Source: Nocardioides sp. | GTDB lineage: Bacteria > Actinomycetota > Actinomycetes > Propionibacteriales > Nocardioidaceae | Direction: 5' to 3' | Length of the DNA stretch: 64,000 bases | NCBI RefSeq assembly: GCF_030655615.1 | Contig: NZ_JAURVJ010000213.1 | Coordinates: 17,036 to 81,035, forward strand | Shown: positions 52,063 through 61,160 of the stretch, in pieces | Position numbering within the stretch: the stretch's first letter is position 1 | How the letters are laid out: each line of letters starts with the position of its first letter | Made by a program: the position numbers and the translations under genes | The notes under the pieces: model-generated | Databases searched by the model: none | What the model was told of the DNA's origin: nothing | What the model saw: the letters and a program-made list of their open reading frames with translations, nothing else

Positions 52063-52168
52063 AAGTGCGGGGACTGTATCGCAGACGGACGGGTCCTCGT
52101 ACCTGCGACCAGGACGGCGGCACCTGCGGCCGATCCCCGGTGCGGGGCGGTCCCGCGAGCATCGAGCC

Positions 52169-56158: not shown

Positions 56159-56189
56159 GCGGTGCTCTCACCTATCCATGCTCACGGTG

Positions 56190-56415
56190 GTCTCCCCGCG
56201 GGCTCGACCATCGTGCTGACACGGTGGTCGAGCCGCGGGGACGGAGTCGCCGTGTGTCGAGACCGCCGCAGGTGCAGGTCGACCTGGGTATGTCGGCTGC
56301 GGGGGTCTCGACGCGGGCTCGCTGGGGCTCGCCCGGCTCGACCACCGTGGGGGTCACCACGTCGCTGCGCGGTGGTCGAGCCGCGGGCTCGCCCCGCTCG
56401 ACCACCGTGGGTGCC
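56190..56415. repeat. Palindromic repeats ggtggtcgagc / gctcgaccacc
   Basis: The 267-bp gap holds several ctcgaccaccgt/cggtggtcgag units. One is a clean inverted repeat with 12-bp arms at 56370-56407. The family is shared with the 85-bp array at 1.5 kb. No gene is supported here; it separates the polymerase gene from the operon terminus. Confidence 0.7.
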
Positions 56416-56425
56416 GGGTCGGGGG

Positions 56426-57109
56426 TCAGGTGAGCCCGTGCTCGTGTGCGTAGACCACGATCTGCACGCGGTCGCGCAGGGCGAGCTTGCGCAGGATCGC
56501 GCCGACGTGGGTCTTGACGGTCGACTCCGAGGCAAAGACGAGAGCACCGATCTCGGTGTTGGAGAGGCCGCGGGCGACGGCGGCGAAGACCTCGCGCTCC
56601 TTGTCGGTCAGCTCGAGGTAGGACGTCGGGGTCGGCGTCGGTGCGACGAAGCTGCCGGCCATCAGGGCGGTGAGGTCGCCGGGAGCGAGGACGGCGTTGC
56701 CGGCGTGGACGGTGCGGATCGCGTCGCGCAGCTGGATCGGCGTCGTGTCCTTGAGGAGGAACCCGCTCGCGCCGTGGCGGATCGCGGTCGCGGCCCGGTC
56801 GTCGAGGTTGAACGTCGTGAGCACGACGACCCGCACCGGACCGGCCCCGGCGGCGGTCCGTCGCGCGACCCGGTCGGCCGCGAAGATCTGCCGGGTCGCC
56901 TCGACCCCGTCCATCTCGGGCATCCGGATGTCCATGAGCACGACGTCGGGGGTCAGCTCGTCGACGAGGTGGACGGCCTCGAGGCCGTCGCCGGCGGTGC
57001 CGACCACGCTCATGCCCTCCTGGGCGTCGACGATGACGCGCACGCCCTCGCGGAAGAGGTCCTGGTCGTCGACCAGCAGGACCCTGATGTCGGTCGGATC
57101 GGGAGTCAT
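56426..57109 (-). CDS. NarL/LuxR-type response regulator (last gene of the van-like operon)
   Basis: The 227-residue regulator has a receiver domain (VLLVDDQDLFREGV, phospho-Asp in VLMDIRMPEMDG near 58) and a LuxR helix-turn-helix (ELTDKEREVFAAVARGLSNTEIGALVFASESTVKTHVG, about 158-195). It belongs with the DesK/NarL-type kinase upstream (ATGA overlap). The ATG at 57109 (MTPDPTDIRVL) is preferred; the track start at 57130 adds residues antisense to no known gene but also lacks a site. VanR proteins are OmpR-type, so this regulator is of a different class. Confidence 0.88.
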   Translation of the reverse strand: MTPDPTDIRVLLVDDQDLFREGVRVIVDAQEGMSVVGTAGDGLEAVHLVDELTPDVVLMDIRMPEMDGVEATRQIFAADRVARRTAAGAGPVRVVVLTTFNLDDRAATAIRHGASGFLLKDTTPIQLRDAIRTVHAGNAVLAPGDLTALMAGSFVAPTPTPTSYLELTDKEREVFAAVARGLSNTEIGALVFASESTVKTHVGAILRKLALRDRVQIVVYAHEHGLT

Positions 57110-58371
57110 CGCGGGCCCAACGGTATCCACGCCGTCACGGTGAACGTCGTGGTGGCGTCGTCCTCATCGCGGCGGCGTACGTCGAGCCGGCCGCCGACGG
57201 CGCCGAGCCGCTGCCGCATGCCGTCGAGCCCGGAGCCCCGCCGGTCCGTGGTCTCGCCCGCCCCCTCGATGCCGTTGCGCACCTCGACGCGCAGCTCGTC
57301 GGACAGCGAGTCGTCGGGCCAGTGCCGCTCGACGAAGACCGGCTCGTCGCGGCGGCCGTGCCGGACGGCGTTGGTGAGCATCTCCTGCAGCACGCGGTAG
57401 GCCGTCACCTCGAGCTCGGGGGGCAGCGGGCGCGCCGTACCGAGCTCGCGCACGACGACCTCGTGGCCGCCCGCGCGGACCCCGTCGACCAGGGTGTCGA
57501 GGGGGCGCGTCGCGACGGGGTGATCGGGGGCGGACAGCACCTGGCGCACGTCCTGCAGCGACGACCGGGCCGAGCCGGCGATCGTGGCCATCGTCTGCTT
57601 GAGGGCGGCGGGGTCGTCGGGGAGGTACTGCGCCGACTCGGCCTGCGCGAGGATCACGGCCAGCGAGTGGCCGACGACGTCGTGCACGTCGCGCGCGAGC
57701 CGGGCCTGCTCGTCGCGGAGCCGGGCGATCTCGCGGGCCTGCTCGGTCTCGCGGACCGCGACCGCCGTCTGCTCCTCGGCCCGCTCCTGCGAGGCGCGCG
57801 AGTCGCGGGCGCGCAGGGCGAAGCGGATGGTGAGGCCGGCCAGCCAGGGCGCCGCGAGCACCGTGCCGGCCGCGGCCAGGCTGGTGGCGAGACCCCCGGT
57901 GCTGCTGGCGTAGAAGAGGTCGCCGACCCGCTGGCCCAGGGGCGAGGCGGAGAACGTGTCGTAGCCCTGGCCGACCAGGGTCGCGACGCCGGCCGCGACG
58001 ACCAGCGGGATCGACATCCCGCCGGCCACGACGGTGGCCGCCCGGCCCCAGCGCGCGGTGCCGAACATGACCGCCACCAGGAAGATCTCGACGAACATCG
58101 GCTGCACGCCGGACACCAGGTGCAGCGCGGCGAGCACCCAGGCGATGGCCAGCGCCGCCGCCGGCGCGCGCCGGCACAGGGCGACCGCGATGGCGGTCAT
58201 CGTCGCGACGATGACGAGGTCGGACCGCGACCCGTTGAAGACCTCGGTGGTCACCGTCTCGTAGGCACCGAGCACCAGCACGACGGCTCCGAGGACGAGC
58301 CCGCCGGTCCACTCGCCGAGCCACTCGCGCAGCCGGCCGCCACCGTCGTCGTTCCGTGGGCCGCTGGACAT
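57106..58371 (-). CDS. Membrane histidine kinase with HisKA_3 domain
   Basis: The 421-residue kinase has four to five helices in the first 180 residues, then HisKA_3 with RLARDVHDVVGHSLAVILAQAESA (phospho-His in DVHD near 222) and HATPase with YRVLQEMLTNAVRHG and SGLDGMRQRLGAVGG. The helices could sense envelope stress. It starts 10 bp after the ddl stop and overlaps the regulator ATG, so it belongs to the ligase operon. ATG 58371. Confidence 0.88.
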   Translation of the reverse strand: MSSGPRNDDGGGRLREWLGEWTGGLVLGAVVLVLGAYETVTTEVFNGSRSDLVIVATMTAIAVALCRRAPAAALAIAWVLAALHLVSGVQPMFVEIFLVAVMFGTARWGRAATVVAGGMSIPLVVAAGVATLVGQGYDTFSASPLGQRVGDLFYASSTGGLATSLAAAGTVLAAPWLAGLTIRFALRARDSRASQERAEEQTAVAVRETEQAREIARLRDEQARLARDVHDVVGHSLAVILAQAESAQYLPDDPAALKQTMATIAGSARSSLQDVRQVLSAPDHPVATRPLDTLVDGVRAGGHEVVVRELGTARPLPPELEVTAYRVLQEMLTNAVRHGRRDEPVFVERHWPDDSLSDELRVEVRNGIEGAGETTDRRGSGLDGMRQRLGAVGGRLDVRRRDEDDATTTFTVTAWIPLGPR

Positions 58372-58381
58372 CGCGGCGACC

Positions 58382-59341
58382 CTACCGAGGGGCGGCGAGG
58401 GCGTCGCGCACCAGGACGTCGAGCAGGTCGGCGTAGGACAGGCTGGCGGCAGCGAACATCTTGGGCACCTGCGACTGCTCGGTGAAGCCGGGCATCGTGT
58501 TGACCTCGTTGAGCACCGGACCGTCCTCGGTCCAGAAGAAGTCGACGCGGGCCACGCCGGCGCAGCCCAGCGCGTCGAAGACCGCGACGGCGGCGTCCTC
58601 GAGGGTCTTGGTGTCGGTCTCGTCGAGGGCGGCGGGGATGTGGAAGTCGGCGGTGCCGCCGTACTTGTCCTCGAAGCCGAAGATGCCACCGGGTGCGACG
58701 ACGATCTCGAGCGTCGGCGCGACGACCCGGCTGCCGTCGGCGCGGCCCAGCACGGCGACGTCGATCTCGCGGCCGACGACGACGTCCTCGACCAGCACCC
58801 GGGAGTCCAGGGCGAAGGCCGCGGCCAGCGCGTCGTCGAGCTCGTCCGCGCTGGCGACCAGCGAGACGCCGTGGCTCGACCCGGCCGCGACGGGCTTGAC
58901 CACGACCGGGTGGGTCCAGGCGTACGCCGACCGCGTGGCCGGGGTGAGCAGGACACCGGGCGCGGTGGCGACCCCCACCGCGGCGGCGACGAGCTTGGTC
59001 GTCCACTTGTCCATGGCCAGGGCCCCGGCGCGCACGCCGGACCCGACGAACGGGAGGCCGGCCAGGTCGCACAGGGCGGCGAGCGTGCCGTCCTCGCCGT
59101 GCGGGCCGTGCACCACCGGCAGCACCACGTCGCAGCGGCGCAGCAGGCACGCGGCGCCGGTGAGCCCGACCGGCCTGCCGCCGCCGTCGAGCCAGGTGCC
59201 GTGTGGGTCGATGGTCAGCCGGACGACCTCGTAGGCCGCGGGGTCGAGGGCGGCCGCGACCGCCGTCGCGCTCGCCAGGGAGACCTCGTGCTCGCAGCTG
59301 GCTCCGCCGCCGATGACGGCCACGCGGGTCCGGGTGCTCAT
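58382..59341 (-). CDS. ddl: D-alanine--D-X ligase (Ddl family)
   Basis: The 319-residue ATP-grasp ligase makes D-Ala-D-Ala or a variant dipeptide such as D-Ala-D-Ser. VIGGGASCEHEVSLASA is the N-terminal signature (Glu is the catalytic position), VHGPHGEDGTLAALCDLAGLPFVGSGV follows, and the omega-loop is GGIFGFEDKYGGTADFH. The Tyr of the AKY/DKY position is kept, unlike D-Ala-D-Lac ligases of VanA type. The C-terminus has FFWTEDGPVLNEVNTMPGFTEQSQVPKM. It is shorter than housekeeping actinobacterial Ddl (about 370). ATG 59341 overlaps the racemase stop (ATGA). Confidence 0.9.
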   Translation of the reverse strand: MSTRTRVAVIGGGASCEHEVSLASATAVAAALDPAAYEVVRLTIDPHGTWLDGGGRPVGLTGAACLLRRCDVVLPVVHGPHGEDGTLAALCDLAGLPFVGSGVRAGALAMDKWTTKLVAAAVGVATAPGVLLTPATRSAYAWTHPVVVKPVAAGSSHGVSLVASADELDDALAAAFALDSRVLVEDVVVGREIDVAVLGRADGSRVVAPTLEIVVAPGGIFGFEDKYGGTADFHIPAALDETDTKTLEDAAVAVFDALGCAGVARVDFFWTEDGPVLNEVNTMPGFTEQSQVPKMFAAASLSYADLLDVLVRDALAAPR

Positions 59342-60456
59342 GAGCGGGCCACCCGGGCGCCGATGCCGGTGACGATCTCGTGCTCGATGGTGCCGGCCCA
59401 GGCGGCCCACTCGGCGACCGTCGGCTCTCCGTGGTGACCGGGGCCGAAGACCGTGGCGACCGTCCCGGGGAGCACCGCGTCGTCACCGAGGTCGACGACG
59501 ACCTGGTCCATCGAGACGCGTCCGACCACCGGCCGTCGCCGTCCGGCCAGCCAGACCTCGGCGCGGCCGCCGGTCGAGCGGGGCAGGCCGTCGGCGTAGC
59601 CGAGCGGCAGCAGGGCGAGGGTCGTGGGGCGGCCCGCGTGCCAGTCGTGGCCGTAGCCGACCGAGGTGCCAGCCACGACGCGGCGGGTGCCGACGGCCGG
59701 CGCGGTGAGGGTGAGGGCGGGGGAGAGGCGGGTGGTCCCGCTCGGGTCGATGCCGACGAGCCCGGCACCGACCCGGCTCATCGTGTGGAGCGCCGCGGGG
59801 TCGGTCAGGGTGGCGGCCGTGGCGGCCAGGTGGCGCAGCGGCGGCCGGAGCCCGGCGGCGCGGGCGACCCCGAGACCCCAGGCGTACGCCGTCCGCCCGG
59901 CCGCGTTGGCCGGGTCGTCCGGCACGTCGGCACAGCCGAGATGACCCATGACCCCGACGACGCGGAGGACGCCCGACCGCTCGGCCCGGCGTGCAGCGCG
60001 GCAGAGGGCCGGCCACTCGCTCGGTGCCGCACCGTCGCGCGCCATGCCGGTGTCGAGGTGGAGGTGGACCCGGGCCCCGATGCCGGCGCGGGTGACCGCC
60101 TCGAGGTGCGCGAGGCTCGGGACGGCGACGTCGACGCCCGAGCCGACCGCGGCGACGAAGTCGGCGTCGACCGGGTTGAGCCAGCTGAGCACCGGTGCCC
60201 GGAGGCCGTCGGCGCGCAGCGCCAGCGCCTCGCCAATGCTCGTGACCCCGAGCCAGGAGGCGCCGTGGGCCAGGGCGGTGCGCGCCACGGCGGACGCACC
60301 GTGGCCGAACCCGTCGGCCTTGACCACGGCCATGAGCGCCCCGGGCGTGCGGGCCGCGAAGGTCCGGGTGTTGGTCGCAATGGCGTCGAGGTCGACGGCG
60401 AGACGCGGTCCGGTCGCGGCGCCGGCCGTGAGGCGGTCGGTCAGGAGCGCGCTCAT
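59338..60456 (-). CDS. alr: Alanine-racemase-fold PLP enzyme (possible serine-type racemase)
   Basis: The 372-residue fold-III PLP racemase has the PLP lysine in VVKADGFGHGASAVA (near residue 41) and the second catalytic Tyr in GTSVGYGHDW (near 262). GYADGLPRS and RVSMDQ are also kept. Near the C-terminus alanine racemases read TIxYEI; here it is TIEHEIVTGIGARV, so the Tyr (position 354 of the Geobacillus enzyme) is His. VanT-type serine racemases also replace this Tyr (by Asn). ATG 60456 overlaps the dipeptidase stop. It probably supplies a D-amino acid to the adjoining ligase. Confidence 0.88.
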   Translation of the reverse strand: MSALLTDRLTAGAATGPRLAVDLDAIATNTRTFAARTPGALMAVVKADGFGHGASAVARTALAHGASWLGVTSIGEALALRADGLRAPVLSWLNPVDADFVAAVGSGVDVAVPSLAHLEAVTRAGIGARVHLHLDTGMARDGAAPSEWPALCRAARRAERSGVLRVVGVMGHLGCADVPDDPANAAGRTAYAWGLGVARAAGLRPPLRHLAATAATLTDPAALHTMSRVGAGLVGIDPSGTTRLSPALTLTAPAVGTRRVVAGTSVGYGHDWHAGRPTTLALLPLGYADGLPRSTGGRAEVWLAGRRRPVVGRVSMDQVVVDLGDDAVLPGTVATVFGPGHHGEPTVAEWAAWAGTIEHEIVTGIGARVARS

Positions 60457-61082
60457 GAGAGGGGGCCGTAGGGAGCGTGGGCCGCGCCGGTGACGAGGGC
60501 CCAGTAGCGGTCGCCGAAGGACCAGTGCCACCACTCGGTCGGGTAGTTGACCAGGCCAGCGCCGCCCAGCGCGTGCGCCATGAGGTCCCGGTGGGCGCGG
60601 GCGTCGGCGCCGATGCCGTCGGCGGCGGTCCAGCAGCGGCCGTCGCTCTGCTCGGGGGTCGCGTCGATCGGGGTGCCGAGGTCGAGGTCGTCGCCGCACG
60701 CGTCGACGAGGGTGAGGTCGACCGCGGCGCCGGCGACGTGCGGCGCGACCTCGACCGGCGAGACGAACCGGCTGGTCAGCACCCGCAGCGCGGCGTCGTC
60801 GACGTCAGGGTGCAGCACGCGCAGCTCGGCGGAGTACGTCGCCACGATCGCCGTCTGGTCGACGACCGAGCGGTGGCCCTCGACGACCCGCAGCCCGATC
60901 CCGGCCGGGAGCCGGCTCGCGGCGACCGCGAGCCGCTCGGCCAGCCCGCGGCGCACCGGCTCGCGGGTGGGGGAGAGGTGCCGGGGCAGCCGCACGAGCG
61001 GCTCACCGGACTCCGCGACAGGGACGGCGACGACGCGCGGGTCCGACAGCAGGATCGTGGAGGGGAGGATCTGGATCGTCAC
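60453..61082 (-). CDS. VanX/DdpX-like D-alanyl-D-alanine dipeptidase
   Basis: The 209-residue M15D metallopeptidase has zinc-ligand motif HVAGAAVDLTLVD (HxxGxAxD, about 101-108) and catalytic EWWHW (Glu/His, about 185-189). VVEGHRS supplies the substrate Arg seen as YRP in VanX. Length matches VanX (about 202), and no signal peptide is present, so it acts in the cytoplasm. Such enzymes hydrolyse D-Ala-D-Ala. It is the first gene of a five-gene unit with racemase, ligase, kinase and regulator. GTG 61082 may be leaderless: tagcgt is 7 nt upstream on the coding strand. Confidence 0.87.
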   Translation of the reverse strand: MTIQILPSTILLSDPRVVAVPVAESGEPLVRLPRHLSPTREPVRRGLAERLAVAASRLPAGIGLRVVEGHRSVVDQTAIVATYSAELRVLHPDVDDAALRVLTSRFVSPVEVAPHVAGAAVDLTLVDACGDDLDLGTPIDATPEQSDGRCWTAADGIGADARAHRDLMAHALGGAGLVNYPTEWWHWSFGDRYWALVTGAAHAPYGPLS

Positions 61083-61160
61083 GTCGACGACGCTACGAAG
61101 CCGCCGACCTGGCGGGATCGGTCGGAGGTGCCGGTCGGCTGCCCGCAGGTACCGGCGGTC

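Follow-up and report, generated by a model that had tools for sequence, protein, structure and literature searches.

A vanX-alr-ddl operon with a NarL-type regulator in Nocardioides as a candidate switch of the peptidoglycan precursor terminus

Introduction

Why would a bacterium express a dipeptidase expected to cleave D-Ala-D-Ala together with a ligase of the family that makes it? The question is raised by a 64,000-nucleotide stretch of Nocardioides sp. DNA (contig NZ_JAURVJ010000213.1; hereafter the window), in which genes for a VanX-like D,D-dipeptidase, a racemase, a Ddl-family ligase, a sensor kinase and a NarL-type response regulator follow one another at 56426-61082. The answer favoured here, as likely although well short of certain, is that the operon works as an inducible switch of the Van type, changing the end of the peptidoglycan precursor, most probably to D-Ala-D-Ser. 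What points to a switch is the combination of dipeptidase, racemase, extra ligase and two-component system beside a separate housekeeping ddl and alr.

Results

The operon and its second-copy genes

A preliminary description of the locus had proposed a five-gene minus-strand operon with 4-bp overlaps and one 10-bp gap. Open reading frames and Pfam matches bear out every gene and junction:

60453..61082, minus strand: VanX-like M15 D,D-dipeptidase gene, GTG start (Pfam PF01427, Peptidase_M15, 51.9 bits)
59338..60456, minus strand: alanine-racemase-fold enzyme gene, candidate serine (or other amino acid) racemase (Pfam Ala_racemase_N/C)
58382..59341, minus strand: Ddl-family ligase gene with Phe/Gln at the second-substrate positions (Pfam Dala_Dala_lig N and C; position analysis; tree)
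57106..58371, minus strand: membrane sensor kinase gene, HisKA_3 (DesK/NarX class) (Pfam HisKA_3 and HATPase_c; hydropathy)
56426..57109, minus strand: NarL/LuxR-class response regulator gene, probable operon activator (Pfam Response_reg and GerE; operator co-occurrence)

ATGA overlaps of 4 bp join vanX/alr, alr/ddl and kinase/regulator, and the 10-bp gap separates ddl from the kinase gene. The N-terminal half of the kinase is hydrophobic, and its phospho-accepting His lies within RDVHDVVGH. By open reading frame and Pfam reading, none of the five genes encodes a VanH dehydrogenase, in keeping with the Van-type gene set without VanH that had been proposed; the regulators, a HisKA_3 kinase and a GerE-domain protein, are likewise not VanS/VanR, as had been stated.

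Contig C81 of the same genome holds another Ddl, at 42% identity to the operon ligase, and contig C39 another Alr, at 43% identity to the operon racemase. With these further copies of ddl and alr present, the operon is not the housekeeping set. A second VanX-like gene (52% identical) is cut by the end of contig C139; it appears split over two contig ends (L073:5882-6367 and the start of L228; G000:C139 and C70), beside which no ddl or alr was found. Of 36 further genomes of the genus, 17 have a ligase at least 65% identical to that of the operon, as do two genomes from the same order, and a housekeeping-type ddl is kept alongside the operon ligase in the genomes examined. Judged by the dipeptidase, the closest named relative is Nocardioides litoris (82%).

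Ligase specificity and ancestry

When 67 operon ligases are compared with 28 actinobacterial housekeeping sequences (housekeeping sets held 28-30 sequences throughout), the two groups split cleanly at only six positions. Two of these are second-substrate sites, at which the operon ligases have Phe (housekeeping Tyr) and Gln (housekeeping Met). Phe/Gln occurs in 67/67 ligases of this kind and 0/28 housekeeping ligases; in the window the residues are F221 and Q291, counted from Met. The alignment gives Phe/Arg in VanG and VanA, Tyr/Leu in E. coli DdlB and Tyr/Met in E. faecalis Ddl, Arg standing in VanA/B/G where the operon ligases have Gln. The reference residue numbers are Tyr210 and Tyr216 for DdlB and Phe250 and Arg322 for VanC2, the residues themselves being read from alignments. 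With the second-substrate positions altered, a futile cycle with the dipeptidase is not needed; this agrees with the earlier argument that the ligase must make a different dipeptide to avoid one. The omega-loop Tyr that follows Lys is present in 68/68 operon ligases; VanG keeps this Tyr and VanA/B lose it. Its retention favours an amino acid over D-lactate as second substrate.

In a maximum-likelihood tree that included VanA/B/G (VanC/E/L/N sequences were left out), the Phe/Gln ligases fall into a single clade (ultrafast bootstrap support 94, and 100 for the five-gene type by itself). This clade adjoins actinobacterial housekeeping Ddl (joint clade 100), away from VanA/B/G, so that the Phe change looks convergent. 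The tree, proposed in the preliminary description, thus gives the ligases a clade of their own outside VanA/B/G, albeit one adjoining housekeeping enzymes. That description had also named an outcome in which the operon ligase is the only Ddl and groups with housekeeping Ddl; instead, the genome has a second ddl and the operon ligases group together.

Consistent with separate ancestry, the window ligase scores far below the cut-offs of D-Ala-D-Ser ligase profiles (NF000207, 230 vs 520 bits; VanG, 248 vs 495; VanC, 205 vs 650) and exceeds those of generic Ddl models. A Foldseek search of the ligase model (predicted local distance difference test score, pLDDT, 92) against the PDB did not discriminate: ancient VanA ranked first, housekeeping Ddl were interspersed, and VanG was at rank 25.

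Racemase and dipeptidase

The racemase retains the catalytic Lys and Tyr, and 15 positions, several of them by the cofactor or substrate, set it apart from housekeeping Alr. Two of the changes, Ser to Gly before the catalytic Tyr and Cys to Ser next to Met312, are shared with the racemase of a vanG-like cluster in Paenibacillus. The zinc and catalytic residues of the dipeptidase (H115, D122, E183, H186), together with R71, are invariant in 19 homologues, and the H/D/E/H set aligns to VanX 1r44; the protein falls below the cut-off of the dipept_VanX model (28.8 vs 320 bits).

A regulator-linked operator

Control of the operon is approached through the vanX promoter, which contains two GGYACCTSNGG sites 21 bp apart:

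61143..61153, minus strand: distal operator half-site GGTACCTGCGG (conserved upstream motif; exact two-site match)
61122..61132, minus strand: proximal operator half-site GGCACCTCCGA, 21 bp from the distal site (conserved motif; regulator co-occurrence)
61090..61095, minus strand: probable -10 element TAGCGT (aligned promoters and sequence; transcription start inferred)

The GTG start at 61082 lies about 8 nt downstream of TAGCGT, a spacing found in many aligned promoters; the transcript is therefore probably leaderless. An unsupervised motif search of 46 upstream regions returned CGGYACCTcAGGtGGAGG (score 1071, vs 387-397 in shuffles). Many promoters have a second site about 21 bp upstream, and elsewhere another element such as TCCTCGAGGACA takes its place. 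When GGYACCTSAGG is sought upstream of vanX with at most one mismatch (chance expectation 0.003 per locus), a site is found in 42/43 regulator-positive loci and 2/37 regulator-negative loci, the latter two on truncated contigs. This conserved, regulator-linked operator argues against constitutive expression. A different conserved upstream sequence, GAACCGGCCGTTCGGCG ... TTCCTAGGTTGG, is found at Lentzea loci L150-L154 and L164-L167, which have vanX-alr-ddl with a neighbouring acyltransferase gene and are without kinase or regulator; it suggests another regulator there.

Exactly one other exact two-site match exists in the window genome, before the gene of a DUF6518 membrane protein and with the same TAGCGT and start spacing; this gene (L231/L282, G000:C66:1-533) runs off its contig. 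Across 121 genomes of the genus, 32 places matching the two-site expression were examined. They precede the operon (16), DUF6518 genes (7), VanZ-like genes (5), an unassigned membrane-like gene (1) and nothing recognisable (3), DUF6518 being identified by Pfam in five cases, VanZ by Pfam in three and the remainder by BLAST. At one mismatch or fewer the genus has 43 two-site matches, a number that does not clearly exceed the roughly 37 of the reversed-pattern control; the evidence for a regulon is where matches fall, not how many there are. Nine of ten checked genomes with such DUF6518 or VanZ-like targets carry the operon ligase, G511 being the one without. At L270:1049 (G214:C22), an operator, CTAGCGT and a start codon stand before a 263-aa membrane-like protein, possibly DUF4184.

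Conservation across actinobacteria

The neighbourhood survey that had been suggested for vanX-alr-ddl used 80 named loci, collected with the dipeptidase profile, as the base set. Many search figures count the matches listed and so mean "at least", and gene starts in other genomes were set by simple open reading frame rules. The window order vanX-alr-ddl occurs in 58 of the 80, from about ten actinobacterial families; the same kind of response regulator is also present in 45 of the 58, and 4-bp overlaps join vanX to alr in 42 and alr to ddl in 44. Shared order with such frequent overlaps means that the arrangement is not due to chance. Carriers include Nocardioides, Pimelobacter, Marmoricola, Jiangella, Actinopolymorpha, Tessaracoccus, Frankia, Kineosporia, Hamadaea, Paractinoplanes, Virgisporangium, Oerskovia, Frondihabitans, Lentzea, Actinokineospora and Actinopolyspora. 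Five Kribbella loci have the order alr-ddl-vanX, and in one genome (G103) the operon lies between gpsA, recognised by eye, and the housekeeping ddl.

In many relatives a membrane acyltransferase-3 gene (AT3, PF01757) lies between ddl and the kinase gene; AT3 is present in 28 of the 58 loci, and in Lentzea and Actinopolyspora the order is vanX-alr-ddl-AT3 with the regulator absent. The window genome has no AT3 orthologue (best match 39%). In enterococcal VanT an AT3 domain and a racemase form one protein, the role of AT3 being unexplained (PMC9558356, PMC12423673). A search of plasmids for an AT3-racemase VanT gave no good AT3 match, and the likeness of AT3 to VanT comes from Pfam and these papers.

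A plasmid of Streptomyces coelicoflavus (NZ_CP108219.1, L187:3870-6071) encodes a 733-aa protein in which an alanine racemase is fused to a Phe/Gln-clade ligase, near type VII secretion-associated genes. Union of the two enzymes in one protein is counted here as favouring a precursor switch.

Relation to known systems

Like the VanC/E/G/L/N systems of enterococci and clostridia, the operon unites a ligase, a D,D-peptidase directed at D-Ala-D-Ala, a racemase and a two-component system, with Phe at the first second-substrate position and an AT3 domain linked to the racemase, here as the separate gene of 28 relatives that the window genome lacks. Unlike those systems, its ligase lies outside the VanA/B/G clade and has Gln instead of Arg; its peptidase is of VanX-type M15 only rather than bifunctional VanXY; its racemase is soluble and separate rather than an AT3-racemase VanT fusion; and its HisKA_3/NarL regulators act with their own operator rather than as VanS/VanR (HisKA/OmpR). 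The ligase family, the lack of VanXY and of the VanT fusion, and the regulator class rule out a VanC/E/G operon by descent, so that the earlier VanC/E/G label stands for gene content and not for ancestry. VanHAX, which produces D-Ala-D-Lac, shares a VanX-type dipeptidase and an altered ligase; it differs in that the window operon has a racemase and no VanH, and its ligase keeps the omega-loop Tyr. A D-Ala-D-Lac reading was ranked down on the absence of VanH and the kept Tyr. Housekeeping alr and ddl share the folds, whereas the operon genes are second copies with other specificity residues and a regulator-linked operator at their promoter.

Among actinobacterial systems, the pdx operon of Micromonosporales (Andreo-Vidal et al. 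2021, PMC8698665), for which D-Ala-D-Ser has been proposed, likewise combines a VanX-like dipeptidase, a Ddl-like ligase, a pyridoxal phosphate (PLP) enzyme and a two-component system. Its PLP enzyme has the PALP fold rather than the alanine-racemase fold, its Phe/Met ligase lies on another branch, and its regulators are OmpR/HisKA. Among the loci scanned for PALP, only L173 and L180 have it; L180 shows the pdx-type arrangement, as does L173, its regulators aside. Sets of vanRSY, racemase and ddl in Allonocardiopsis, Murinocardiopsis and some Geodermatophilales, described in the same survey as rare and suggested to make D-Ala-D-Ser (PMC8698665), also place an alanine/aspartate racemase and a Ddl beside van-like genes; they differ in their VanY-type peptidase, VanRS pair, gene order and regulator class. 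The text passages of that survey list no van-like genes for Actinopolysporales and give Jiangellales most often vanHAXRSY; here, L158 (Actinopolysporales) carries a vanX-alr-ddl set. No published account of a vanX-alr-ddl operon with a NarL-type regulator was found, and the passages of PMC8698665, figures and supplements aside, describe none. The preliminary description is thus supported in part, its suggestion of an undescribed precursor switch being the part that fits best; its alternative of a self-resistance system, at which no test was aimed, gained no support.

Discussion

If the operon acts as a Van-type switch, its operation would involve: activation of the membrane kinase, most likely by a precursor-bound cell-wall antibiotic or by the stress that such a drug causes; phosphorylation of the NarL-type regulator, which would bind the two GGYACCTSNGG sites beside the -35 region and turn on the apparently leaderless transcript; hydrolysis by the VanX-like dipeptidase of D-Ala-D-Ala from housekeeping Ddl; formation of a D-amino acid, most likely D-Ser, by the racemase; and coupling of D-Ala to that amino acid by the Phe/Gln ligase, after which MurF would add the D-Ala-D-X dipeptide to the precursor. 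The membrane proteins whose genes share this operator, VanZ-like and DUF6518, may act at the envelope, as may AT3 in loci that have it. Sequence shows the operon and its conservation, the altered ligase and racemase residues, and an operator that accompanies the regulator; product, inducer and any resistance conferred are predictions of this scheme.

Several points weigh against the D-Ser switch, which is a proposal from sequence. Gln replaces Arg at the second of the two substrate positions; no characterised ligase is known to us with Gln there, and D-Ser is therefore only inferred. The racemase position equivalent to Tyr354 (Geobacillus enzyme numbering), which we take to mark VanT, varies in both operon and housekeeping groups and is not diagnostic in actinobacterial Alr. 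Presence of the operon within the genus is patchy. Finally, four loci of the genus (L050, L056, L057, L059) have alr-ddl, usually with kinase or regulator, and no vanX in the stretch examined, so that a clean switch would be leaky there.

The nearest alternative keeps the Van-type switch and changes the ligase product to a dipeptide with another D-amino acid, or to D-Ala-Gly, giving a terminus not yet seen in resistance. Gln in place of Arg would suit it, as would a racemase pocket that at many positions resembles neither housekeeping Alr nor the VanT-like enzyme. The locus otherwise follows D-Ser logic, however, in the AT3 beside the racemase, the Phe switch and the kept omega-loop Tyr, and in the analogous pdx operon VanX and a Phe-type ligase accompany an enzyme resembling a serine racemase/dehydratase (PMC8698665); another product is regarded as a distinct minority possibility. 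A kinase-controlled role in wall remodelling during growth or development, or in D-amino acid salvage, unrelated to antibiotics, is less probable again. Most carriers are not known antibiotic producers, and van-like genes have been suggested to take part in actinobacterial remodelling (PMC8698665); a set found in just 17 of 36 further genomes of one genus nevertheless looks more like a conditional defence than a core programme, and the regulon includes VanZ-like genes.

Two further explanations address the duplicated enzymes. Extra racemase and ligase could titrate D-cycloserine, both of whose targets, Alr and Ddl, are duplicated within one regulated operon. Such tolerance is improbable: co-expressed VanX would destroy the protected product, the substrate-site residues are altered, and the operator is common to VanZ-like genes. 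Least likely is redundancy, in which D-Ala-D-Ala would remain the ligase product and the dipeptidase would serve to recycle different dipeptides. The sister position of the clade to housekeeping Ddl and the ligase scores above generic Ddl cut-offs speak for redundancy, but both second-substrate positions are replaced throughout the Phe/Gln clade and in none of the housekeeping ligases, and a housekeeping-type ddl is retained beside the operon ligase in the genomes examined.

The favoured D-Ala-D-Ser switch may belong to something larger. Tentatively, and at a little under even chances, the operon represents a widespread Van-type class that arose inside Actinomycetes separately from VanA/B/G and is marked by Phe/Gln ligases, a separate racemase and AT3, a NarL-type regulator with its own operator, a VanZ-like/DUF6518 regulon, and a D-Ala-D-Ser or new terminus. 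If so, precursor switching of the D-Ala-D-Ser kind would be a common chromosomal trait of soil actinobacteria, undescribed in the passages of the PMC8698665 survey, and the ligase change would have evolved more than once. As AT3 is a separate and sometimes missing gene, its deletion would test directly what the AT3 half of VanT contributes, and the operator would define a regulon in which VanZ-like and DUF6518 proteins could be given a function.

Additional observations

On a plasmid of Streptomyces sp. NBC_01244 (L224:1422-4925), murF is grouped with genes for a distant Ddl and for a threonine/serine dehydratase; here too, a Ddl is found beside a serine-type PLP enzyme. Within the window, a weak two-site operator match (2 mismatches) lies at 52098-52129 on the plus strand. 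Direct and inverted GGTGGTCGAGCCGCGGGCTCGACC-like repeats cluster at 56185-56411, just 3' of the regulator gene, and may be a repetitive extragenic palindromic (REP)-like element or a terminator.

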